DNA of 55,339 nt from Nanobdellota archaeon (lineage in GTDB: Archaea > Nanobdellota > Nanobdellia > Woesearchaeales > UBA9642), in the NCBI GenBank assembly GCA_021813435.1, contig JAKAKR010000011.1, forward strand, positions 1 to 55,339. The letters run 5' to 3'. How positions within the stretch are numbered: the first letter of the stretch is position 1; every line of letters begins with the position of its first letter. The notes below the pieces were generated by a model that saw only the letters and a program-made list of their open reading frames with translations, ran no database searches and was not told the DNA's origin. Below, one piece after another: positions 6,558 through 18,664 of the stretch. The position numbers were made by a program, and so were the translations under genes.

Positions 6558-7649
6558 ATGGCTGAAAAAGATTATTACAAGGTCTTGGGCGTTTCCAAGA
6601 ATGCGACGAAGGAAGAGATCAAGGCAGCGTACAAGAAGCTTGCAAAGGAGTTTCATCCTGATGTCAATAAGGCGCCGGATGCAACAGAAAAATTCAAGGA
6701 GATCAATGAGGCAGCCTCAGTTCTTGCAGACGACCAGAAACGCCAGCAATACGATACGTACGGCTCGGATTTCGAGAAGCGTTATCACCAGAATTTCAAC
6801 CAGCAGTATTCTAACTTTGATTTTGAGGATATGGACTTTGGGGATATCTTCGAGATGTTTTTCGGCGGCAGCGGATTCGGGTCAATGCATGCGCGCAGGC
6901 ATCGCGGAAGCGATCTGCGCTACGATGTTGAGATAACCCTTGAGGATGTTGCACGTGGGGTCAAGAAGTCAATCGCGCTCGAAAAACCTGCAGCGTGCGA
7001 TGCATGCGAGGGCAGGGGCGGCGACGATTTCGAGACCTGCAAGGACTGCAACGGCAAGGGCGTAAAGCGGGTCACACAGCGAACTCCATTCGGCGTCTTT
7101 GCATCAACCGTTGCCTGCAAACGCTGCGAAGGCCGCGGGGAAATCATCAAGAATGTATGCAGCGAATGTGATGGCCGGGGAGTTCTGCGCAGTAAAAAGA
7201 CTTTGGAAATTGATATCCCTGCCGGAATCACTGACGGCGCGCAACTGCGATTGAAGCACGAGGGCGAAGCAGTAAAGAACGGAGAATCCGGAGACCTCTA
7301 TATTTTTATCAGTGTCAAGGAACACAAATATTTTGAACGCGACAATGATGATATTGTCCTTGACGCGCATATCAATTTCACGCAGGCAATCTTGGGAGAT
7401 GAGATTGAAGTTCCGACACTTGAAGGAAAAGCAATCCTCAAGATTCCTTCTGGAACACAGCCCGAGACAGTATTGCGCATGAAAGGCAAGGGAATAAAAC
7501 ACTTGCATAGTCATGGAACCGGCGACGAACTTGTGCGGATAAAAGTGCAGATCCCTGAGAAACTCACACGACCGCAGGAACACCTCATCAAGGAATTCCA
7601 GAAAGAAGCAGGAAAAAAAACAAGCTTCTTTAATAGGATATTCAGGTAA
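6558..7649 (+). CDS. dnaJ: Co-chaperone DnaJ (Hsp40, type I)
   Basis: DnaJ delivers substrates to DnaK and stimulates its ATPase. Domains in order: J domain (2-70) with the HPD motif in FHPDVNK, a Gly/Phe-rich stretch (DFGDIFEMFFGGSGFG), four zinc-binding CxxCxGxG repeats (CDACEGRG, CKDCNGKG, CKRCEGRG, CSECDGRG), then the C-terminal substrate-binding barrels. I chose ATG 6558 over the in-frame GTG at 6549. The J domain begins directly after it, and an AT-rich TATA-like tract (6525-6540) sits at the right distance for a nearly leaderless mRNA. Confidence 0.95.
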   Translation: MAEKDYYKVLGVSKNATKEEIKAAYKKLAKEFHPDVNKAPDATEKFKEINEAASVLADDQKRQQYDTYGSDFEKRYHQNFNQQYSNFDFEDMDFGDIFEMFFGGSGFGSMHARRHRGSDLRYDVEITLEDVARGVKKSIALEKPAACDACEGRGGDDFETCKDCNGKGVKRVTQRTPFGVFASTVACKRCEGRGEIIKNVCSECDGRGVLRSKKTLEIDIPAGITDGAQLRLKHEGEAVKNGESGDLYIFISVKEHKYFERDNDDIVLDAHINFTQAILGDEIEVPTLEGKAILKIPSGTQPETVLRMKGKGIKHLHSHGTGDELVRIKVQIPEKLTRPQEHLIKEFQKEAGKKTSFFNRIFR

Positions 7650-7686
7650 ATAGTACTTACTGTATAGTGATAATATTTCGTAACCT

Positions 7687-7694
7687 TTTTAAAC
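7687..7694 (+). promoter_or_regulatory. TATA box of a leaderless gene
   Basis: TTTTTAAA about 28 bases before ATG 7719, with no Shine-Dalgarno between, fits a leaderless transcript. Confidence 0.45.
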
Positions 7695-7718
7695 CCTTAT
7701 TATCTTCTCTCTATAATT

Positions 7719-8315
7719 ATGATAGATAATATCTTTACTGCAGCAATCAATAGAACACGTCTTAATGCAGGAGTAAAGCGGTATCAGTCTGTAGTAGAAG
7801 ACATTTTTCTTACATCTTTGGGCGATATTTCTCTTTCTGCATTCACCACTTACAGCAATCACATCCGTTACTGGTACGGTATCGCACATGAATCTTATGA
7901 CCCGTCAGATATCAATAGCTTTGCATTTGTCTGTTCAGAATTAGCAAATACGAAATCGAATATTATTTTTCACACGAAAAAAAAATTATTTTCTCCAGAA
8001 GATGGGCTGTATCTTGCGGTTCATGAGATGGCGCATCTCGGACACAAACTACGATTATCAGAAATATATGATAAACTCCCTGAATCGCATCATGAACTTA
8101 TCGTAGATATGGTCGCAGCATATGTCACCAAAGACATGAATACGGAAGAATTACATCCTACACTACAGCATTGGCATCATTTTTCACAAAAAGCAATTGC
8201 GGCTTTCGGATCTTTCGAGGACATGATCTCTGAAGAATTGCTTTATTGCAGTTTATTCACCTACGTCGAGCAAAAGCATCCCTCAGTAATGAAACAGCTT
8301 CTTGAAACGCCCTGA
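7719..8315 (+). CDS. Small HExxH metalloprotease-like protein
   Basis: The 198-aa protein contains AVHEMAHLGHK (His at about residues 106 and 110), a canonical HExxH zinc site. A further His/Glu/Asp-rich helix (SHHELIVDMVAAY, about 127-139) could supply the third zinc ligand, as in gluzincins. No signal peptide or membrane segment is seen, so it is likely cytosolic. It is smaller than most characterised peptidases and I cannot place it in a named family. It is a single gene between dnaJ and the convergent nrdG. Confidence 0.6.
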   Translation: MIDNIFTAAINRTRLNAGVKRYQSVVEDIFLTSLGDISLSAFTTYSNHIRYWYGIAHESYDPSDINSFAFVCSELANTKSNIIFHTKKKLFSPEDGLYLAVHEMAHLGHKLRLSEIYDKLPESHHELIVDMVAAYVTKDMNTEELHPTLQHWHHFSQKAIAAFGSFEDMISEELLYCSLFTYVEQKHPSVMKQLLETP

Positions 8316-8326
8316 TCCAATCTCTT

Positions 8327-9040
8327 TCATCGTATTTCGACTGTCTCGACTTTTCCATCGAACAGTTTGGTGAATCCCTGCAACTCTTTTATCGTGTATG
8401 TTTTCTCGTCCTTGAATGCATTATCGATCAGGTCCTGCTCGGACTTGAATTGTTGCAGGACATATTTTTTTGCGCCAGCAATAAGCGTTGCAATCTCCTC
8501 AAAATCCTGCGGTGCGTGCAGTCGTGGAAGAACAGTCGTCCGGAACTCATACTCGATGAGTCCTTTTTTCCCTGCATCCATGATGAGCGCGATGCTTTTC
8601 TTGATATTTGCGCTATTCACCTGCGTATTGACGGTTTCTGGATATTTTGCAAGATTGTTCTTGATGTCCATTGCAATATAGTCCACGAGCTGTTCTGTAA
8701 TCGCTTTCTCGATGATTCCGGGAAATGTCCCGTTCGTGTCGAGTTTTATTGAGATTTTCCGTTTCTTGATCTCGCGCATGAATTCAAGGATTCCCGGATG
8801 CATGAGCGGCTCTCCGCCAAGGAGCACCACTCCATCGATCCATTTCCTTTTCTGGTCGAGAAATGTGAAGAATTCTTCAGGTGTGATGTCTGGGAATTCA
8901 TCCTCATGAAATATCAGTTCTGGATTATGACAATAGCCGCAGCGGAAATTGCACTTGCTCAAAAAAACCACCGTTGCAATCTTATTCGGATAATCAATGA
9001 GCGAGGATTTCACGATTCCCTTAATGTGGATATCCATCAT
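8327..9040 (-). CDS. nrdG: Anaerobic ribonucleotide reductase activating protein (radical SAM)
   Basis: This enzyme uses SAM and a 4Fe-4S cluster to install the glycyl radical on class III reductase. The cluster motif CNFRCGYC is at about residues 31-38, after the typical entry LIDYPNKIATVVFLSKC. The SAM-binding GGEPL follows at about 96, and LDTNGT and AMDIKN later in the barrel. At 237 aa it has the size of the archaeal/thermophile activase type. The start overlaps the HAD stop as ATGA and has GGAGAG upstream. Its partner is the split NrdD encoded upstream on the same strand. Confidence 0.88.
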   Translation of the reverse strand: MMDIHIKGIVKSSLIDYPNKIATVVFLSKCNFRCGYCHNPELIFHEDEFPDITPEEFFTFLDQKRKWIDGVVLLGGEPLMHPGILEFMREIKKRKISIKLDTNGTFPGIIEKAITEQLVDYIAMDIKNNLAKYPETVNTQVNSANIKKSIALIMDAGKKGLIEYEFRTTVLPRLHAPQDFEEIATLIAGAKKYVLQQFKSEQDLIDNAFKDEKTYTIKELQGFTKLFDGKVETVEIR

Positions 9041-9678
9041 AAGAATCTCTCCAGATCAGTGAGCGTCATGATGCGATTGGGATAATCCGGATGCTTGTTC
9101 TTTCGGTCAATAAGAATCCCCTTAATCCCGCAGGATTCTGCGCTTGCAACATCGAGACGTAACGAATCACCGACCATGACTGCCTCATCCGCAGAGACGC
9201 CAAGGCGCTGGAGTGCGAGTGCATAAATGTGCGGATCAGGCTTTTGGATGCCGACCTCATAAGAGAGGATTATTTCATCGACAAGTTCATGGATAGGGAA
9301 CTTTTCCAGGATCTGTTTCATCGAGATATTCGTGGTATTGCTCAGGATCGCAATCTTGTATTTCTGCTTGAATTCCTGCAGTACTGCGATGGTCTCGGGG
9401 AACGCATATTTTCTTACGGTTCCATTACTTGCAATGATCTCGCATAATGCATCGACTGTTGTCTTGTCAACCTGCATGTGCAGTCTTGCGATGAATTGCT
9501 GCATCGTTGCCTGAAGGTCAGTGATGGGATGCGTCATGAATGTTTCGCTGAACGCCGTATAGAATTCCGGATCATGATACGTCCTTCCGATCTTCATCGC
9601 GAATTCATCGAATGGCCGTACAGCAGCGTCTGTCTCAAATAGTGTCCCCCATAAATCAAAAATAATTGCCTTGATCAT
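9037..9678 (-). CDS. HAD-superfamily hydrolase
   Basis: Haloacid-dehalogenase-type phosphatase of 213 aa. Motif I is FDLWGTLF (Asp nucleophile at residue 8, with Trp in the second-Asp position as in some family members), motif II is ILSNTT, the motif III lysine is in GIQKPDPHIY, and motif IV is MVGDSLRLDV. A helical cap lies between motifs I and II. Being sandwiched between a thioredoxin-like gene and nrdG in a deoxynucleotide unit, it may act on nucleotides or sugar phosphates; that is inference only. Confidence 0.85.
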   Translation of the reverse strand: MIKAIIFDLWGTLFETDAAVRPFDEFAMKIGRTYHDPEFYTAFSETFMTHPITDLQATMQQFIARLHMQVDKTTVDALCEIIASNGTVRKYAFPETIAVLQEFKQKYKIAILSNTTNISMKQILEKFPIHELVDEIILSYEVGIQKPDPHIYALALQRLGVSADEAVMVGDSLRLDVASAESCGIKGILIDRKNKHPDYPNRIMTLTDLERFL

Positions 9679-9679
9679 A

Positions 9680-9931
9680 TTATTTGAGCGCAGTGTTCAA
9701 TTCTTCGAGTCGCGGGGTCTCGCCACGCCATTCGGCAACAATACTCTGATCCTCATTCAGGACTACGATGGATGGCGTTGCAAGAATGCCATACTCGAGC
9801 GCTTCAGCAAGCCCCTCTTCTGTCTTGATATCATGATAATGAACCATTGCCTTATGCTCGATCTGCGCAACAACCTGTTTTGCTGCAGGACATTTGGGGC
9901 AGGTTGGTTGGGTAAAGACTTTAACAATCAT
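9680..9931 (-). CDS. Thioredoxin/glutaredoxin-like protein
   Basis: Small redox protein of 83 aa from ATG 9931; an in-frame GTG nine bases earlier is less likely because AGGTGA is well placed for the ATG. VKVFTQPTCPKCPAAKQVV holds the CPKC active site near the N-terminus, and the cis-Pro occurs in ATPSIVVL. The fold is complete for a mini-thioredoxin of the archaeal/NrdH-redoxin size. It sits between dut and the HAD gene, beside both reductases, so a role as reductant for ribonucleotide reductase is plausible but not shown. Confidence 0.85.
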   Translation of the reverse strand: MIVKVFTQPTCPKCPAAKQVVAQIEHKAMVHYHDIKTEEGLAEALEYGILATPSIVVLNEDQSIVAEWRGETPRLEELNTALK

Positions 9932-9952
9932 TGTAATCACCTGATCTCTTTT

Positions 9953-10414
9953 TTATTTATATCCTGAACTTCCGAATCCGCCTTCGCCACGGTTGGTCTC
10001 TGAAAGTGTAGCAGTGGGTTTTAATGTCACGATCTGTACGGGTTGGATAAGCATCTGCGCGATACGCATGTGCTTTTCGACCTTGAAATCCTCCTTACCC
10101 AGATTGATAAGTACAATCCCTATCTCCCCACGAAAATTCGGGTCAATGACACCGGCCATGGTATGGACAGAAAATTTTGCAGCCATGCCAGAACGGTCAC
10201 GAATACTACCAACATGATGCGGAGGAATACTCATCTTGATTCCGCTGCTAAAAACCTTTTTCTCCATTGGCTTGAGAATATATTCCTCTTCAGCATTCCG
10301 CAAGTCAAATGCGACATCACCATCATGCGCATATTCAAGATCGGGAAGATCAGGACTTGCTTTCACATATTCGAGTGTAAACTTTTTTTCCGCATGCATT
10401 ACTTCTTGAACCAT
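9953..10414 (-). CDS. dut: dUTP diphosphatase (trimeric dUTPase)
   Basis: Hydrolyses dUTP to dUMP, keeping uracil out of DNA and feeding dTMP synthesis. Conserved motifs appear in order: DVAFDLRNAE (motif 1), RDRSGMAAK (motif 2), VIDPNFRGEIGIVLIN (motif 3), RIAQMLIQPV (motif 4) and the Gly-rich C-terminal arm RGEGGFGSSGYK (motif 5). I chose ATG 10414, seven bases after GGGGG (10422-10426), over upstream in-frame codons. It leads a minus-strand unit with the redoxin, HAD and nrdG genes. Confidence 0.95.
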   Translation of the reverse strand: MVQEVMHAEKKFTLEYVKASPDLPDLEYAHDGDVAFDLRNAEEEYILKPMEKKVFSSGIKMSIPPHHVGSIRDRSGMAAKFSVHTMAGVIDPNFRGEIGIVLINLGKEDFKVEKHMRIAQMLIQPVQIVTLKPTATLSETNRGEGGFGSSGYK

Positions 10415-10440
10415 CATCAAACCCCCTACACCTGTAATCA

Positions 10441-10462
10441 CTATATATACTATTTAAAATAG
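10441..10462 (-). promoter_or_regulatory. dut promoter with a single NrdR-like core and an AT palindrome
   Basis: The TATA tract (TTTTAAATAGT on the minus strand) overlaps the palindrome TACTATTTAAAATAGTA. The adjacent CTATATATAC (10441-10450) matches nine of ten core bases of the NrdR consensus CTATATATAG. There is no second box at about 32 bases, and AT-rich TATA sequence can mimic the box, so regulation by NrdR here is only possible. Confidence 0.3.
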
Positions 10463-10484
10463 TATTTTTACTCTTTTAAAAAAA

Positions 10485-10658
10485 TCACTTTCTGCAGCCG
10501 CAATCACTGCTTGCGTCAACAGTGTAATTGCCATTCTGCCGGCTCTTGAATTCTGCACGCTTAGACTTGTTCCAATTGTTGATTCGGGAAAAATACCCGA
10601 CGACACGGCTGATGCCGTACACATTCTTGCTTCCGCATTGTGGACATTTTGCTGTCAT
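10485..10658 (-). CDS. nrdD: Separate glycyl-radical C-terminal domain of class III RNR (NrdD piece 2)
   Basis: This 57-aa product is the C-terminal end of an anaerobic ribonucleotide reductase encoded as its own gene. It starts MTAKCPQCGSKNVYGIS, supplying the second cysteine pair of the NrdD zinc site. It continues with RVVGYFSRINNWNKSK, where the Gly at residue 21 is the expected radical site. ATG 10658 has a good Shine-Dalgarno, GAGGTG (10668-10673), which overlaps the stop of the preceding ORF. The first cysteine pair (CEDC) ends the large NrdR-NrdD protein about 1.26 kb upstream. The tail DASSDCGCRK is an extra, Cys-containing extension. Confidence 0.9.
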   Translation of the reverse strand: MTAKCPQCGSKNVYGISRVVGYFSRINNWNKSKRAEFKSRQNGNYTVDASSDCGCRK

Positions 10659-10671
10659 TTTTTTGTACACC

Positions 10672-10974
10672 TCACTTGTCGAACATCCAATCAAGTTTTG
10701 AGCCATCAAGTACGTGCAGGAGAGCGGTTATGATCTCTGCATCGAGTATGTTTTTACCTTGGCTCATAAGCTTAATCATTTCATTATATTTATCATCATC
10801 AATTTCATAATAGAGTTCTGACAAAAGCAATTCCTTGTTTAATGCAAGTTCCATGCTCTTATCCTTGAGACTTGAATTATTATGGGCAAGTTTTATGATT
10901 ATCCTGTCCTTAGTCTCTGCTAAACTAAGAAATTTCGCCTGCCCGCCTATTTTAACATCCCTCAGTTTTGGCAT
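10672..10974 (-). CDS. Insert-cassette ORF, 100 aa
   Basis: Not recognised. A beta-type N-terminus (KLRDVKIGGQAKFLSLAE, RIIIKLAHN) is followed by acidic helices (LLLSELYYEIDDDKYNEMIKL). No membrane segment. It begins 12 bases after the 149-aa ORF, and its stop overlaps the Shine-Dalgarno of the glycyl-radical gene, so it is probably translated in the same message. It is one of the small genes lying between the two pieces of NrdD. Confidence 0.65.
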   Translation of the reverse strand: MPKLRDVKIGGQAKFLSLAETKDRIIIKLAHNNSSLKDKSMELALNKELLLSELYYEIDDDKYNEMIKLMSQGKNILDAEIITALLHVLDGSKLDWMFDK

Positions 10975-10986
10975 TTTAAACTCTTG

Positions 10987-11436
10987 TTACATATAATGTA
11001 TTACAATATCTATCTGTGTTCCTACGAGTGCCTCTGTTGGAGAAAGTTCACTATTTTTCGGATTAATCAATATAAATGCTTCTTTATTCTTTAATTCAGC
11101 AATTGTTTTCTTGAATTTTTCTTTTATTGGTACGTTTGGTTGTTTTTGAGTATGCTGTATTGAATCTGCAAGACCGATAGCCGCATCTTTATATAAAACG
11201 AGACTAATTTTCGGCTGCATAAATAGCAGCAATTCTACATTCTCTTCATCCATGCTGCCACCAGATATTTTTGCTTTAATGGCGTGTTGCATGAATAATG
11301 ATTTATCGCTCGATTCAATGGTGAGTAAGTGCATACCGGATTTAGGAGAGGTCGGCATTTTTCCCGCAAATTCAATACTGCTCATCGTAGAGTCTTGCTG
11401 TACGCGTGTTATGATGCCTGTTATTTTTTTGACCAT
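10987..11436 (-). CDS. Insert-cassette ORF, 149 aa
   Basis: Not recognised. The N-terminal half is strand-rich (VKKITGIITRVQQD, HLLTIESSDKSLFMQHAIKAKI, VELLLFMQPKISLVLY). A charged linker and a C-terminal strand pair (EAFILINPKN, QIDIVIHYM) follow. No catalytic motif or membrane segment is visible. It lies 20 bases after the 84-aa ORF. The start (KITGIITRV) loosely resembles the start of the 84-aa product (NIRARVSTV), so the cassette proteins may be distant relatives. Confidence 0.65.
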   Translation of the reverse strand: MVKKITGIITRVQQDSTMSSIEFAGKMPTSPKSGMHLLTIESSDKSLFMQHAIKAKISGGSMDEENVELLLFMQPKISLVLYKDAAIGLADSIQHTQKQPNVPIKEKFKKTIAELKNKEAFILINPKNSELSPTEALVGTQIDIVIHYM

Positions 11437-11456
11437 TTTATACCTTAGAATATTTT

Positions 11457-11711
11457 CTATTTGAGATCTTTCTCTATGACTATTTCTATAATGCTTCCTT
11501 CAAGCGATTTCATGCTTGGCACTACTATGTTGCCCCCCATTATTTTTCCTCTAGCGACGGAATTTTCTTTTACATCTTTAATCCATCTTTGTGCGATATC
11601 CCTATTGACCGTAAGTGTTCCGGCGCTCATTCCATCGGTAAATGCTATTTCAAAAGCTTTTTCTCCTATGGGATTAACGGTACTCACTCTTGCTCTTATG
11701 TTGGGTCTCAT
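11457..11711 (-). CDS. Insert-cassette ORF, 84 aa
   Basis: Not recognised. A small beta-rich protein (IRARVSTVN, KAFEIAFTDG, GGNIVVPSM, GSIIEIVIEKD) with one helix (DIAQRWIKDVKEN). GGAG lies eight bases before ATG 11711, and the ATG overlaps a TGA in another frame as ATGA, a sign of coupling to an upstream reading frame that may be disrupted. TATA-like TTTATTAATA (about 11755-11766) could start a transcript for the cassette and the radical-domain gene. Confidence 0.6.
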   Translation of the reverse strand: MRPNIRARVSTVNPIGEKAFEIAFTDGMSAGTLTVNRDIAQRWIKDVKENSVARGKIMGGNIVVPSMKSLEGSIIEIVIEKDLK

Positions 11712-11928
11712 TGTATCAACTCCAAAAAATGTTTTTTAATTTCCCGGCCTCTTTTATTAATAAATGTTATTTTTTTCGTATCTGTTACCCTCGCTCGTAT
11801 TTTGCTGTTTTATTGATTGAAATTCTTGCCATTTGCAATTCTGCAAGAATTTCTTGATATTTTAATTTTGAATACTCGCATATTGATGGTAACAATATCT
11901 GAACTATTCTTCTTTTATCATCGATCAT
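11708..11928 (-). pseudogene. Possible frameshifted small ORF between nrdRD and the cassette
   Basis: One frame opens at ATG 11928, overlapping the end of nrdRD, and runs 47 codons to a TAA at 11785-11787 (ILLPSICEYSKLKYQEILAE). A second frame, open from about 11804, carries KIRARVTDTKKITFINK and ends in a TGA that overlaps the next ATG. A single frameshift around 11786-11800 would join them into one protein of about 73 residues with overlaps at both ends. It may be a decayed gene, a sequencing error, or chance. Confidence 0.35.
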
Positions 11929-14395
11929 ACCCTTTTGATACTGCATGGCAGTCTTCGCAGACTGTAAATTCAGGACTGATGGTTATCTGCGCGCTTGGCG
12001 TATGCTCCCAGGTCTTTTTGACGAGTTGATAGATTGCCTCAGGACTCGGGGACTTTTCGCCCACAAATACGTGCGTGATTGCTCCTGCCTCGATAATGGG
12101 ATTGAATTTTGCCTGTTTTTCAATGCGTTCCATGATATCAACATCAGCATCAGCTGCGAGGTGGACACTATTTGTGTAATAGACTTCGCCCTTATCAATA
12201 TCACCGCGTACATACTCGCGGCTTTCCGGGTACTCCTGCAAATCTACTTTTGCAAACCGCAGTGATGTCGATTCCCCCGGAGTTTCTTCAAGGACAATCT
12301 TGAGTCCGTGCTGCTCTTCCATCTGTTTTGCCTTCAGATACATTGCTGAGGCAATCTTGAGCCCGAGCTTGTATGCCTTGTCTGATTCATGGAGTTCTTC
12401 ACCAGTAAGGTATTTGACGCATTCATTGAGTCCGATCATGCCGATGATGTAGCTTGCTTCATTAAGGTCAACATAGGGTCTTTCGTCTAGTGCAGTCATG
12501 CCGATCTGCCAGAGCGGTGTTCCGGGCTGACTGCTGATCTTTGTGATAAACGCCTTTTTCTGGAGGTGCGCTTTCATTGCGATCTCCATGGTCTTTTTGA
12601 TCTCATCAATTGTTCCCTCAACTGTTTTTCCACGATACGCGGCCTGGGGAAGATTGACAGTTACATTCTGGAATCCGCAGAACCGCAGGCTTTCCGGATG
12701 CTGCAAGAGGTATTGGTCAGTGATTTTTGTACGCAACCTGCAGCAGGCTGAGAGTGTTGCAGCCTCACGATCAAAAATAAAATACGGGCTGCCATTGTCT
12801 GCAGCGATCTTGCAGGAATATTTCAGGAGTTCAAGCTGTGATTTATCGTCAAAGGAGTCCTGGTCAACATGCAGATCCATCTTGGGAAAGCTAAAGACCT
12901 TGCCTTCACTGTCGCCGTCATGCCATACTTCCATGAGAGCGCGCGCGAATTCCTGGGCTTCTTTCTTGAAATCATTATAGGTCAGAATCCTTCCTTCCTT
13001 AGGATTGATTTGCTTGAGATTTCCTTTCTCATCGCGCGGAACTTCTGTAACATGCTCGATTGTCCCATCAATCCGTTTGATCATATATTTTCCACTTGGG
13101 CCGATTGCAGGGATCTCCTGCATATACCCCGGGATTCCAAGATGGATATTGAAATCAATAAAGAGCGTCTGTCCCCCACGGCTGAATGCATTCTGCGAGC
13201 AGCTAAAAATAAGATACTGTGCTTCCTGCTTTAACTGCTTAACTGAAAGTCCTACAAGAAGCGGCGCATAGAAGATATTGAGGTATGCAAGGCCGAGGGC
13301 TCCAGCATAGTATGCCTGCATGGATGCAAGAAATGTGTTCAAATGACCAGTCAATGTCTGTGCGTGCTTAGCAGATGTTGAGCTGCTGTTCAGGTTGTTC
13401 AATCGAAGACCATATTTCTTGAGATATTCAAGTGAGTGCGCTGAACAATAGACCCGCACAATATATCCAAGATCATGCAGATGGACAGCTGCCTTAAGGT
13501 GCGCTTCAGCAACATCCTTGCTGAATACTTCCTTGAGCGCGTATTGCTTGAGTACTGCTTCTGCAATTGCAAGATTTACTGCTTCAGGATTATTATTGAC
13601 AATATTGCTGTTCTCAAGATTTTTGGAGAAGATGACTTGGTTAAGGTTATAGACACTGATGCCAAGGATTTCCTGCTTTTCAAGTTTTTTGGTGTAGCCG
13701 CGCTCAAAAAGTTCATTGTTGACCAGTTCACGCAAAAGTGAGGTGGAAATAGTCCTGACACCGGATTTTGCAACCTTTTTCTCAACAGATGCTGCAATGG
13801 TCTCTGCTTCTTCTTTCTCAAGCTTGATCTCCTTGATCAATGCTTCCACAATGCGCTGCTTATTCCATTCATTGAGCGTGCCTTTGAGCGGTGTTGAGAC
13901 CAGAAGATTAAGATCTGTAGTGTCCTGGCTTGTTGCAGAATCCTGCGAGACAATCTTGAGATTCTTGAGCTCGTTTTCAAATTCGTCAAGATCCTTGAAT
14001 TGGCGATAGACAGAGGCAAACCTGATATAGGCAATCTCATCAAGCTGCTTTAAGTGCTTCATGATGATGTCGCCAACAACTGTGCTCTTGATTTCGTTTG
14101 ATTCCTGATTATAGACTTCTGCTTCAATCTCTGAGACTGTGGCTTCAATGCGTTGCGCGCTGATGGGCCTTTTTTCGCATGCTTTTGTGATGCCTTTGAG
14201 TATCTTGTCCCTATTGAATGATTCCCTGCGACCATCTTTTTTGACCACATTGATCTCAACCATCTCAATGGTCTCATAGGTTGTAAAGCGTTTGCCGCAT
14301 TTGAGGCATTCTCTTCTGCGCCTATTGGTGTCATCATCAGAAACCCGTTTATCAACGACTTTAAGCTCAGAACTTGAACAAAATGGACATTTCAT
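11918..14395 (-). CDS. nrdD: NrdR-NrdD fusion: repressor domain joined to class III RNR catalytic subunit (piece 1)
   Basis: Residues 1-40 are an NrdR zinc ribbon (CPFC at 3-6, RRRRECLKCGKRFTTYE with C30/C33). Residues about 47-137 are the NrdR ATP-cone (VVKKDGRRESFNRDKI, EIAYIRFASVYRQFKD). After a short linker comes a second ATP-cone (about 165-235, KQRIVEALIKE), then the class III catalytic domain with GGQTLFIDFNIHLGIPGYM, LSACCRLRTKI and RFCGFQNVTVNLPQAAYRG. The protein stops at TVCEDCHAVSKGYDR, after only the first zinc-site CxxC and before the radical Gly domain, which is a separate gene. ATG 14395 follows GGGGGAG. Function: makes dNTPs without oxygen and probably represses its own and the nrdAB promoter. 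Confidence 0.9.
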   Translation of the reverse strand: MKCPFCSSSELKVVDKRVSDDDTNRRRRECLKCGKRFTTYETIEMVEINVVKKDGRRESFNRDKILKGITKACEKRPISAQRIEATVSEIEAEVYNQESNEIKSTVVGDIIMKHLKQLDEIAYIRFASVYRQFKDLDEFENELKNLKIVSQDSATSQDTTDLNLLVSTPLKGTLNEWNKQRIVEALIKEIKLEKEEAETIAASVEKKVAKSGVRTISTSLLRELVNNELFERGYTKKLEKQEILGISVYNLNQVIFSKNLENSNIVNNNPEAVNLAIAEAVLKQYALKEVFSKDVAEAHLKAAVHLHDLGYIVRVYCSAHSLEYLKKYGLRLNNLNSSSTSAKHAQTLTGHLNTFLASMQAYYAGALGLAYLNIFYAPLLVGLSVKQLKQEAQYLIFSCSQNAFSRGGQTLFIDFNIHLGIPGYMQEIPAIGPSGKYMIKRIDGTIEHVTEVPRDEKGNLKQINPKEGRILTYNDFKKEAQEFARALMEVWHDGDSEGKVFSFPKMDLHVDQDSFDDKSQLELLKYSCKIAADNGSPYFIFDREAATLSACCRLRTKITDQYLLQHPESLRFCGFQNVTVNLPQAAYRGKTVEGTIDEIKKTMEIAMKAHLQKKAFITKISSQPGTPLWQIGMTALDERPYVDLNEASYIIGMIGLNECVKYLTGEELHESDKAYKLGLKIASAMYLKAKQMEEQHGLKIVLEETPGESTSLRFAKVDLQEYPESREYVRGDIDKGEVYYTNSVHLAADADVDIMERIEKQAKFNPIIEAGAITHVFVGEKSPSPEAIYQLVKKTWEHTPSAQITISPEFTVCEDCHAVSKGYDR

Positions 14396-14417
14396 GTAAA
14401 ACTCCCCCAAATTGCTA

Positions 14418-14460
14418 CTACATCTAGTGTTACTGGATGTAATTTTTCTACTATATCTTG
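14418..14460. promoter_or_regulatory. Tandem NrdR-like boxes before nrdRD
   Basis: Two sites resemble the NrdR consensus core CWATATATWG: CTACATCTAG (14418-14427, followed by the matching TGT) and CTATATCTTG (14451-14460). Each matches eight of ten core bases, and their centres are 33 bases apart, close to the three-turn spacing usual for paired NrdR boxes. They lie between a TATA tract (14500-14507, minus-strand sense) and the nrdRD start, a position suited to repression. Confidence 0.6.
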
Positions 14461-14499
14461 TATATTTTTTGAAACTTGTCCATTACTGTCTGCAAGTTA

Positions 14500-14507
14500 T
14501 ATATAAA
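14500..14507 (-). promoter_or_regulatory. TATA box for nrdRD
   Basis: TTTATATA in minus-strand sense, placing initiation near 14478 and giving a leader of about 80 bases that contains both NrdR-like boxes. A second AT-rich candidate lies at 14461-14470. Confidence 0.4.
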
Positions 14508-14589
14508 TATTGTTGTACTCCAAGGGTATTTTTTGTTAGTATAGATCGGCTCGTATACTTCAAAATATATCTTTTTCAAAACGAAAATG

Positions 14590-14597
14590 TTTAAATA
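14590..14597 (+). promoter_or_regulatory. TATA box for nrdAB
   Basis: TTTAAATA on the plus strand; initiation about 25-27 bases downstream would fall at or beside the first NrdR-like box (14617-14626). Confidence 0.5.
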
Positions 14598-14616
14598 TAA
14601 CCTGCTTGCATTTGTA

Positions 14617-14660
14617 CAACATATTGATTTTTTAAGAAGTTCTAAGCACAATATCTTGTG
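14617..14660. promoter_or_regulatory. Tandem NrdR boxes before nrdAB
   Basis: CAACATATTG (14617-14626) matches nine of ten bases of the core CAATATATTG. CACAATATCTTGTG (14647-14660) is an almost perfect palindromic NrdR box with one mismatch. Centres are exactly 32 bases apart. The first box overlaps the predicted transcription start of nrdAB. With the pair before nrdRD, each of the two divergent promoters has its own pair. Confidence 0.75.
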
Positions 14661-14748
14661 TTTATGAATTTTTTATACCTCATTCAGTATCTAAAAGATA
14701 TTGAATATATTTGTGATATCGTTGAAGGGGGATTGTAAAGGGGGATTG

Positions 14749-17667
14749 GTGGATGTGGAACAAAAAACAATAACAACACAGGCAACAGCGGAACTACCCG
14801 CAGCGTCTTCAGTAGAACTCTACGTAGTAAAACGCACTGGAGAACTGGTCGCTTTTGACACTACGCGGATCATCAACGCAGTACAGCGGGCAGCACGCGC
14901 CACAGGGGTGACTGTAGAACCAGCAATATTCCACAGGCTGATACAAGATATTGTGTCTGAAATCGAATCACGATTCATTGACCTCTATCCTAATGTTGAA
15001 AACATCCAGGATATCATTGAAAAAAACCTCATGAAATACGAATTATTCGAGGTATCAAAATCCTACATCCTCTACAGGGCAGAGCGTGCACGCGCGCGCG
15101 AAGAGAAAAAGAAAGAAGATATGGAAAAGACCTTGCTCGGAAAACTCAAGATCACCAAGCGTGACGGCAGGACAGTCATTTTTGACATTGCACGGATCGA
15201 AGAGACCCTCAAGCGCGCAGCAAGCGGACGCGAAAAAGATATCTCCTTTAGCCTTATCACCAAAGAACTCATCAAGAATGTGTATGACGGAATTACCACT
15301 TTTGAACTTGAAAAAGCGCTCCTTCTTGCAACAACTGCATTCATCGAAAAAGATCCTGCGTATAGTTATGTTGGCGCGCGATTATACCTCCAGAAAATCT
15401 ATAAGGAAGTCATCGGAACATCAATCACTAAAACAGCACTGGATCATGCATACAAAGAATCATTTGTTCACGGCATCATGAAGGCTGTGGAACTTGGAAT
15501 CCTGGACACTGCAATGGCCAATTTTGATCTCAAAAAACTTGCAGAAGCACTAAATCCTGAACGCGACCATCTCTTCCAATATATTGGCTTGCAAACCCTC
15601 TATGAACGCTATTTTCTCAAATCTGAAGATCAGCGGCTTGAATGCCCGCAAAGTTTCTGGATGCGTGTCGCTATGGGACTTGCAATTGCAGAAAAACCCG
15701 AGGAACGCACTGCATGGGCAATACGATTCTATGACAGTATCTCCACATATCGCTTTGTTCCTTCAACACCAACCTTATTCCACTCGGGAACAGTCCATCC
15801 GCAACTCAGCTCATGCTACCTCAACACAGTAACTGACGATCTCAGTCACATCTTCAAGGTGTATTCAGACAATGCCCAACTCTCCAAATGGTCCGGTGGG
15901 ATAGGCACAGATTGGACTAATATCCGCGCAACAGGCGCGCATATCAAATCAACAAATGTTGAAAGTCAGGGAGTCATCCCATTCCTAAAGATTGCAAATG
16001 ATGTGACTGCAGCAATCAATCGCAGCGGTAAACGCCGCGGCGCAACATGCACGTATCTTGAAACATGGCATCTTGACATTGAAGACTTCCTTGATCTGCG
16101 CAAGAACACGGGCGATGATCGCAGAAGAACGCATGACATGAACACTGCAAACTGGATCCCTGACCTCTTTATGAAACGGATGCTTGCAAATGAGGATTGG
16201 ACTCTTTTTAGTCCAGAAGAGGTTCCTGAACTCCATGAACTCTACGGCAAGGCGTTTGAAGAAAAATATCTCTCTTATGAAGCGCGTGCTAAAAGAGGAG
16301 ACATCAAAAAGTATAAGACTGTTTCTGCACTTAAACTCTGGCGTAAGATGATTTCAATGCTCTTTGAGACAGGTCATCCCTGGATCACATTCAAGGATCC
16401 TGCAAATATCCGGAGCCCGCAGGATCATGCCGGAGTCATCCATAATAGCAATCTCTGCACTGAAATAACCCTGAACACCTCGCAAGATGAGACTGCAGTA
16501 TGCAATCTCGGTTCAATCAATCTTGAAAAACATGTTGTACAGGATCCAGAAACAAACACGCGAGTACGCGCTTTCATTATTGATAAGCCGCTTCTTGCAG
16601 AGACCATTGCACTTGCGGTACGTATGCTCGATAATGTCATAGACATCAATTATTATCCGACCACTGAAGCAAGAAATGCAAATCTTCGACATCGCCCGAT
16701 AGGGCTTGGAATCATGGGGGTTCAGGATGCGTTCTTCAAACTCAATCTTGCGTTTGATGACCCGCTCGCTTTTGCATCAACTGATGAGACCATGGAATTC
16801 ATTGCATACCAGGCAATACTTACCAGCTCGCACCTTGCAAAAGAACGGGGAAGTTATGCGAGTTTTGCGGGATCCAAATGGTCAAGAAATATCCTCCCCC
16901 AAGACACTATTGCACTCCTGGAACACGAGCGTGGCGTCACCATAGATCTGCCAAGACAGGAACACTTGGATTGGGGAGAGGTTCGTGAATCCATAAAAAA
17001 GCACGGCATGCGCAATTCAAATGTGATGGCAGTTGCGCCTACTGCAACAATAAGCACTATTGTTGCTTGTTTTCCGACAATAGAACCTATCTACAAGAAT
17101 ATTTACGTGAAATCAAACATGAGCGGAGAATTCACTGTAGTCAATAGTTACCTTGTAGAAGACTTGAAGGGACTTGGATTGTGGGGCGATGAGATGCTCT
17201 CGCAACTCAAATATTATGATGGAAATATCAGCATGATTGCAGGAATTCCTGATTATCTTAAGGCAAAGTATAAAGAAGCATTTGAGATTGATCCGCAGGT
17301 ACTTATTCGGCATACTGCCCTGCGCGCCAAATGGATTGATCAAAGCCAGAGCCATAACATATTCATTAAAGGAACATCAGGAAAAATCATTTCAGACACG
17401 TACATCTATGCATGGCAGATGGGATTAAAGACGACCTATTACCTGCGCACACTTGCAGCCTCGCAAATCGAAAAATCAACACTTGATGCAAAAAAGTACG
17501 GGTTCACGCAGAAACGGGAATATGCAGCTGAAACGCCTGAGCCTATCCCTATTCCTGAACCTGCTATCCCTGCACCTGCACTAGTAGTTGCGCCGCCGAT
17601 TATTCATGTAGCGTCTGGAGTTAAACTCTGCAAGATTGAAAATCCAGACTGTGAGGCATGCCAATAA
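14749..17667 (+). CDS. nrdA: Class I ribonucleotide reductase alpha subunit
   Basis: Reduces ribonucleotides using a radical passed from NrdB. Two ATP-cones lead (about 20-115, YVVKRTGELVAFDTTRII; and about 135-225, KITKRDGRTVIFDIARIE), then the alpha barrel. The redox Cys is in SSCYLNT, the active-site N-x-C-x-E in SNLCTEITL, the partner Cys in AVCNLGSINLE, and VAPTATISTI follows. The C-terminal shuttle pair is CEACQ. GTG 14749 is preferred, with AAAGGGGG four bases before; GTG 14755 and an upstream TTG are alternatives. A Pro/Ala-rich linker precedes the C-terminal cysteines. nrdB follows at once. Confidence 0.93.
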   Translation: MDVEQKTITTQATAELPAASSVELYVVKRTGELVAFDTTRIINAVQRAARATGVTVEPAIFHRLIQDIVSEIESRFIDLYPNVENIQDIIEKNLMKYELFEVSKSYILYRAERARAREEKKKEDMEKTLLGKLKITKRDGRTVIFDIARIEETLKRAASGREKDISFSLITKELIKNVYDGITTFELEKALLLATTAFIEKDPAYSYVGARLYLQKIYKEVIGTSITKTALDHAYKESFVHGIMKAVELGILDTAMANFDLKKLAEALNPERDHLFQYIGLQTLYERYFLKSEDQRLECPQSFWMRVAMGLAIAEKPEERTAWAIRFYDSISTYRFVPSTPTLFHSGTVHPQLSSCYLNTVTDDLSHIFKVYSDNAQLSKWSGGIGTDWTNIRATGAHIKSTNVESQGVIPFLKIANDVTAAINRSGKRRGATCTYLETWHLDIEDFLDLRKNTGDDRRRTHDMNTANWIPDLFMKRMLANEDWTLFSPEEVPELHELYGKAFEEKYLSYEARAKRGDIKKYKTVSALKLWRKMISMLFETGHPWITFKDPANIRSPQDHAGVIHNSNLCTEITLNTSQDETAVCNLGSINLEKHVVQDPETNTRVRAFIIDKPLLAETIALAVRMLDNVIDINYYPTTEARNANLRHRPIGLGIMGVQDAFFKLNLAFDDPLAFASTDETMEFIAYQAILTSSHLAKERGSYASFAGSKWSRNILPQDTIALLEHERGVTIDLPRQEHLDWGEVRESIKKHGMRNSNVMAVAPTATISTIVACFPTIEPIYKNIYVKSNMSGEFTVVNSYLVEDLKGLGLWGDEMLSQLKYYDGNISMIAGIPDYLKAKYKEAFEIDPQVLIRHTALRAKWIDQSQSHNIFIKGTSGKIISDTYIYAWQMGLKTTYYLRTLAASQIEKSTLDAKKYGFTQKREYAAETPEPIPIPEPAIPAPALVVAPPIIHVASGVKLCKIENPDCEACQ

Positions 17668-17668
17668 A

Positions 17669-18664
17669 ATGACCATCATCAACAATTCAAAAACAGATCC
17701 AAACAAGATACTGCCCATGACCTATAAGTGGGCACGCCAGCATTACAAGGATGGGGTTGCAAACAACTGGACTCCTGAAGAGATCGGGATGCAAAAAGAT
17801 GTCGAGCAATGGAAATCGACAAAAGTCCTTAGTGAGACCGAGCGCAGGCTCATCATGTGGAATCTCGGATTTTTCAGTACTGCTGAATCCCTGACTGCAA
17901 ACAATATTGTCCTTGCAGTCTACAACCACGTGACCAATCCTGAATGCAGACAATACCTGCTCCGCCAGGCATTTGAGGAAGCGATCCATACTGATACCTT
18001 CATCTATTGCTGCGACAGTCTGGGACTTGACCCTGAAGAAATATACACCATGTACACGAGTATCCCCTCGATTAGGGCAAAAGACGATTATGTTGTTGAA
18101 CTCACCCAAAGCGTATTCGACCCGAATTTCAAAACCCAGGGGACAGAGAACATCCGTAGATTTGTCCGCGACCTTGTAGGATACTATGTTATCATGGAAG
18201 GGATATTCTTCTACGCAGGATTTGCAATGATGCTTGCATTAAAGCGGCAGAACAAGATGGTTGGGATCGGTGAACAATTCGAATTCATCATGCGTGATGA
18301 ATCCATACACCTTGCATTCGGCTGTGATATCATCAACACCATCAAATCAGAAAATCCCGAGATATGGACTGCAGAATTCCAGGAAGAACTGACGCGACTT
18401 ATCAGGAAAGCGGTTGAACTCGAAAGCGCATACGCGTATGATGCCTGCTCGCAGAGAGTCCTGGGAATCAATGCGACGCAATTCAGCAATTACGTGGAGC
18501 ACATCGCAGACAGAAGACTTGAGCGCATCAACCTCCCCAAGATCTATGGCACAGAAAACCCCTTCCCCTGGATGAGCCAATCAACAGATCTTACTAAGGA
18601 AAAAAATTTCTTTGAGACCCGCGTAACTGAATACCAGAGTGCAGGACGGCTTGATTGGGAGTAA
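17669..18664 (+). CDS. nrdB: Class Ic ribonucleotide reductase beta subunit (Phe in place of radical Tyr)
   Basis: Ferritin-like radical-generating subunit, 331 aa. Metal ligands are seen in FFSTAESLTANN (first Glu), FEEAIHTDTF (E-x-x-H), VIMEGIFFY (Glu) and RDESIHLAF (E-x-x-H). The residue four after the first His is Phe where class Ia enzymes have the radical Tyr. The surrounding sequence resembles the Chlamydia enzyme, the class Ic type that uses a Mn/Fe cofactor instead of a tyrosyl radical. The start ATG 17669 is one base after the nrdA stop, with GAGG inside the end of nrdA. Confidence 0.93.
   Translation: MTIINNSKTDPNKILPMTYKWARQHYKDGVANNWTPEEIGMQKDVEQWKSTKVLSETERRLIMWNLGFFSTAESLTANNIVLAVYNHVTNPECRQYLLRQAFEEAIHTDTFIYCCDSLGLDPEEIYTMYTSIPSIRAKDDYVVELTQSVFDPNFKTQGTENIRRFVRDLVGYYVIMEGIFFYAGFAMMLALKRQNKMVGIGEQFEFIMRDESIHLAFGCDIINTIKSENPEIWTAEFQEELTRLIRKAVELESAYAYDACSQRVLGINATQFSNYVEHIADRRLERINLPKIYGTENPFPWMSQSTDLTKEKNFFETRVTEYQSAGRLDWE

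Follow-up and report, generated by a model that had tools for sequence, protein, structure and literature searches.

Paired NrdR boxes at two divergent ribonucleotide reductase promoters of a DPANN archaeon, beside a gene for an NrdR-NrdD fusion

NrdR, the repressor of ribonucleotide reductase (RNR) genes, was described as rare among archaea (PMC9110341), and according to a 2014 review its binding site, the NrdR box, does not occur there (PMC4009431). The archaeal class studied here is DPANN. In the genome of one uncultured member, the window, by which we mean the whole 55,339-nucleotide stretch that was analysed, carries two divergent RNR operons separated by a short region with four words resembling NrdR boxes. 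Are these bacterial-type operators serving archaeal promoters, and is the NrdR domain encoded next to them the protein that reads them?

Two box pairs and the adjacent NrdR domain

The nrdRD gene (ATG at 14395, minus strand) and nrdA (GTG at 14752, plus strand) diverge from an intergenic region of 356 bases, which holds four 10-base boxes in two pairs. The features of the locus are as follows.

11918..14395, minus strand: nrdRD fusion gene (825 aa), an NrdR module joined to an NrdD body that lacks a C-terminal glycyl-radical domain
13958..14395, minus strand: NrdR module (146 aa), the N-terminus of NrdRD, with zinc ribbon and ATP-cone
14415..14430, no strand: putative NrdR box 2 (start-distal) of the nrdRD operator, CTACTACATCTAGTGT, core CTACATCTAG at 14418-14427
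14448..14463, no strand: putative NrdR box 1 (promoter-proximal) of the nrdRD operator, CTACTATATCTTGTAT, core CTATATCTTG at 14451-14460
14500..14507, minus strand: predicted TATA box of the nrdRD promoter, TTTATATA, an 8/8 match, starting 52 bp before the box 1 centre and 44 bp before the nearest 16-mer
14590..14597, plus strand: predicted TATA box of the nrdAB promoter, TTTAAATA, starting 32 bp before the box 1 centre and 24 bp upstream of the point where the nearest 16-mer begins
14614..14629, no strand: putative NrdR box 1 of the nrdAB operator, GTACAACATATTGATT, core CAACATATTG at 14617-14626, over the predicted transcription start
14646..14661, no strand: putative NrdR box 2 of the nrdAB operator, GCACAATATCTTGTGT, core CAATATCTTG at 14649-14658
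14752..17667, plus strand: nrdA, class I RNR large subunit
17669..18664, plus strand: nrdB, class I RNR small subunit

All four box sequences were found where the initial annotation had placed them, with centres 33 bp apart before nrdRD and 32 bp apart before nrdAB. Its remark that this is the spacing of known NrdR pairs also held, as both pairs fit the regular expression and the "short" spacer class (20-23; here 23 and 22) that the NrdR laboratory applied to bacterial genomes (PMC12051234). Each pair has two boxes with the conserved C and G and lies within the 30-33 bp centre to centre (14-17 bp between 16-mers) of an NrdR operator. Matches to the published 16-mer acaCwAtATaTwGtgt were 12/16 (14418), 12/16 (14451), 11/16 (14617) and 14/16 (14649), and the two pairs received matrix scores of 28.0 and 29.6. 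A lone strong box, ATACAAGATATTGTGT (14/16), lies at 14941-14956 inside nrdA, about 190 bases past its start, and has no partner at 30-33 bp.

The NrdR module has the zinc ribbon with two CxxC motifs and the ATP-cone of the family, and it matched TIGR00244 with 189.3 bits, above the curated cut-off of 124.65, as well as Zn_ribbon_NrdR, PF22811 and PF03477. Against the solved NrdRs of Escherichia coli and Streptomyces coelicolor, E-values ranged from 1e-31 to 1e-39. When the module was aligned to the S. coelicolor 7p37 chain, equivalents of the DNA-contact residues D15, R17 and RRRR were present; among nucleotide-site residues, K50, E56, K62, K69 and Y128 were kept and R51 was replaced by K (S. 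coelicolor numbering). The roles of these residues, D15 and R17 in reading the box and the others around the nucleotides, were taken from PMC9110341. No second NrdR was found in the genome, which leaves the fusion as its sole NrdR. A stand-alone NrdR has 140-220 residues, and such proteins occur in a genome of the same genus (G003) and in one of the same family (G002); because the protein in the window is instead an 825-aa fusion to NrdD, we class it as an NrdR domain that forms part of a fusion rather than as a typical NrdR protein.

The reductase half lacks one feature of a class III RNR chain. The NrdD chain ends at the first CxxC, followed by two stops, and the glycyl-radical domain (MTAKCPQCGSKNVYGISRVVGYF...), which would be expected at its C-terminus, is a separate 55-aa frame at 10494-10658 on the minus strand. 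The same split was seen in relatives (L075 at ~7640-7790; L076 near 4339, minus strand; L078 near 2836), where the glycyl-radical frame immediately follows the NrdD chain; the window has three genes without a Pfam match in between. A literature search by title or abstract returned no account of a split class III RNR. The genes 3' of nrdRD on the same strand (8327-11711, minus) comprise these three genes, the glycyl piece, and genes for a dUTPase, a thioredoxin-like, an HAD-like and a radical SAM protein, the last of which may be the NrdG activase.

Box pairs across the class and beyond

An NrdR match was present in 197 of the 281 class genomes, above the cut-off in 176. Strict box pairs occurred in 44 of the 197 genomes with a match vs 2 of the 84 without one. 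Because the strict pattern is insensitive (46/281 genomes), counts were taken from a scored scan of the upstream DNA (at most 300 bases) of 69 nrdR genes, using a matrix built from the published consensus, with the spacing left free between 29 and 34 and a threshold score of 22. This threshold was set after looking at the data, and counts were similar for thresholds from 19 to 25 (59 to 46 of 69). Pairs scoring at least 22 preceded 54 of the 69 genes, vs 0/69 nrdR coding stretches and 7/1380 shuffles; the other 15 upstream regions scored below 22. Although free to vary, the spacing was 31 or 32 in 50 of the 54 pairs (32 in 33 of them, 31 in 17), and 28 of 34 families had at least one pair. The initial annotation had proposed a scan with an NrdR-box matrix and a comparison across relatives, and both support an NrdR operator.

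It had also made its reading depend on conservation among relatives that keep the fusion, and this was largely borne out. A pair precedes the fusion gene in G012, G019 and G254 and in six Heimdallarchaeal/Asgard loci (scores 23.4-26.2, spacing always 31). The fusion of G022 has only a weak pair (20.8), none was seen in the only ~280 upstream bases available for that of G108, and the fusion of G005 lacks one before its own gene and has a pair instead before the class II RNR gene nrdJ (L225 2935). G005, from the genus of the window, is one of several genomes (with G277, G146, G168 and G247) that have no pair at nrdR itself and carry one upstream of an RNR gene located elsewhere. The nrdJ-nrdR stretch of G003, also from this genus, has a weaker pair (22.7) in front of it.

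Several of these fusions are of interest in themselves. In G005 (L037 2369-4696), the NrdD half has lost its conserved cysteines and RGGQT and has no glycyl domain, and NrdR looks intact; to judge by these residues, the protein is perhaps a repressor with a dead-enzyme tail. The G254 gene (L079 362-4372) joins NrdR to an apparent class II RNR with an intein-like insert, its box pair lying 57 bases upstream. Two shorter fusions (L220 266-2533 and L222 4-2865, both minus strand) place the NrdR zinc ribbon directly on a single ATP-cone and NrdD, and have box pairs upstream. In bacteria, relatives belonging to this NrdD subfamily had no zinc ribbon in a motif search and carry the glycyl domain in frame.

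In haloarchaea, a conserved pair-like element lies within ~80 bases of nrdR in plasmid nrdR-RNR operons of the nrdR-nrdBA type (score 18.8-26.1, spacing 29-30 in the register used here), with TTTATN 26 bases before its first centre. Since box pairs are common in the DPANN class, occur at Heimdallarchaeal loci and can be made out in haloarchaea, the statement that the box is absent in archaea does not hold, and the window locus is no oddity. A later survey of NrdR boxes was limited to bacterial genomes (PMC12051234), and our literature search found no paper joining NrdR with DPANN. The kind of circuit is known; its archaeal and fused variant is new.

Promoter geometry and alternative readings

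The initial annotation had each pair just downstream of a TATA box, and TATA boxes were found at -32 (nrdAB) and -52 (nrdRD) from the box 1 centre, with box 1 at a fixed helical phase from them. The nrdAB offset is the commonest in the class and puts the predicted nrdA start at ~14621, on box 1; the nrdRD offset is further out by whole turns, beyond that of most relatives, and shares the helical phase of -42, -32 and -22. Across non-redundant class loci, a perfect (8/8) TTTAWAWA was present 15-60 bases before the box 1 centre in 79%, vs 10% of shuffles, and the TATA starts fell into three groups, at about -42, -32 and -22, one helical turn apart. Compared with jittered positions, this clustering had a p of ~1e-4 over 35 loci, a figure overstated by genome kinship; because family f37 supplies ten of these loci (at -39 to -43), the value of 0.002-0.004 obtained with one locus per family is the fair one. 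Whole-turn jumps were also seen inside families (-22, -32 and -41 in f52; -31/-32 and -42 in f54), and the Asgard loci have their TATA at -41/-42. With the TATA a fixed helical step from most pairs, box 1 is expected on or near the predicted start, and the pairs at these RNR promoters are thereby predicted to overlap the start region where polymerase sits. The fixed phase is a hint that NrdR has to be oriented in a particular way towards TBP/TFB, and such a register would suggest that the two come together on the same face of the DNA instead of excluding each other by simple overlap. Box conservation and TATA phasing together support the earlier suggestion that a bacterial-type operator works with archaeal promoters here.

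From these sequence comparisons, we conclude that each of the two divergent RNR promoters very probably has an NrdR operator of its own, read by the NrdR half of the adjacent fusion, which would thereby repress nrdRD and nrdAB. NrdR might bind the boxes and yet repress by a route other than blocking the start site, either by looping or by keeping TBP/TFB off, in which case the boxes would lie upstream of the real TATA. A second TATA-like sequence, TTTTTATA near 14669, is a candidate for nrdA that would give such an arrangement and would shorten the predicted nrdA leader, which is long at ~130 nt; the single strong box (14/16) at 14941-14956 inside nrdA also speaks for such alternatives. We consider either route unlikely, given that the nrdA TATA at -32 has the commonest class offset and that a perfect TATA precedes box 1 in 79% of class loci. 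The internal box, without a partner at 30-33 bp, is a site of which a fraction of one is expected by chance in the window (from an extrapolated score tail).

It is much less probable still that the boxes are relics of operators that came with the RNR operons from bacteria and that the archaeal fusion no longer regulates. Class I nrdAB is indeed unusual in this genome family, most relatives having genes of a class II-like type, and cases in which archaea received class I RNR by transfer are on record (PMC3019208). Pairs nevertheless persist in 28 families, in Asgard and in haloarchaea, in fixed phase to archaeal TATA boxes; they shift by whole turns within f52 and f54, and the DNA-contact residues of NrdR are kept.

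We also scanned the whole 1.41-Mb genome, by pattern and by stretches, for CWANATNTWG-N20-24-CWANATNTWG, with the reversed pattern as a control. The strict pattern matched three times, two matches being the nrdRD and nrdAB pairs, and the control had none; a relaxed pattern gave four pairs genome-wide, again with none in the control. The third strict match (C8:21481-21520; L034 1501-1540, G000; spacing 30) lies ~120 bases before a gene for an Lrp/AsnC-type regulator, and since it is not conserved in relatives (four of five orthologues have none, and in G003 the only pair is weak and at another position), we do not claim it for the regulon. The relaxed match at C1:5674 looks like a chance match. 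The notion that the boxes themselves are chance palindromes, near-palindromic AT-rich words in an AT-rich promoter region, is scarcely credible in view of the empty genome-wide control and of 5000 Markov shuffles of the intergenic sequence, none of which produced a pair scoring at least 28, the observed level, and the enrichment and conservation of pairs throughout the class already refute it.

A proposed circuit and its known counterparts

In S. coelicolor and E. coli, dATP and ATP bound in the ATP-cones bring NrdR onto the two boxes as a tetramer, with each box kinked (PMC9110341). By analogy with that work, a rise in dATP would load the ATP-cones of the fusion with dATP and ATP, and the NrdR tetramer would set one zinc-ribbon pair on each box and kink the DNA. 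On an archaeal promoter, box 1 on or near the start would leave TBP room upstream and would block loading of TFB/RNA polymerase or promoter escape. With dNTPs in good supply, the fusion would in this way repress the class I genes as well as the class III operon that encodes it. The fused NrdD body, of ~680 residues, could get in the way of NrdR tetramer assembly. Possible, if slightly doubtful, is the fuller reading of the locus as a class III RNR with a built-in dATP-sensing repressor, in which one polypeptide would make dNTPs without oxygen, sense dATP, and shut off both itself and the aerobic RNR through archaeal TATA boxes and NrdR boxes in fixed helical register. If the proposed operators are real, one repressor and one operator work with two unrelated transcription machineries. 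Footprints, and the outcome of altering the spacing, can be predicted from the helical phase relative to the TATA box, and since haloarchaea with nrdR operons can be cultivated, these predictions are testable.

Among known systems, the bacterial NrdR circuits of S. coelicolor (nrdRJ, nrdAB) and E. coli (nrdHIEF, nrdDG, nrdAB) share with the window the box consensus, pairing at about three turns, the zinc-ribbon and ATP-cone residues, and RNR operons and nrdR itself as targets. The window differs from them in its archaeal TBP/TFB promoters, in the helical phasing of TATA to box, and in having NrdR as the N-terminus of a class III RNR. The haloarchaeal plasmids (Natronomonas pharaonis PL131, Halomicrobium, Halorubrum) likewise combine an archaeal NrdR and an RNR operon with a box-like pair before nrdR, but their NrdR stands alone, the spacing is 29-30 in our register, the flanks are GC-rich and the box matches are weaker. 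The Heimdallarchaeal and DPANN fusions (L134-L138, L140, L132) are of the same kind, have a box pair upstream and, wherever the glycyl-radical domain was found, carry it on a separate small frame, except in L139/G022; among the fusion loci compared, only the window has a divergent class I operon with a second operator of its own. Two NrdR box pairs in one regulatory region are also known from the nrdAB promoter of Listeria monocytogenes, where both serve one promoter (PMC12051234), whereas in the window each pair would serve one of two divergent promoters.
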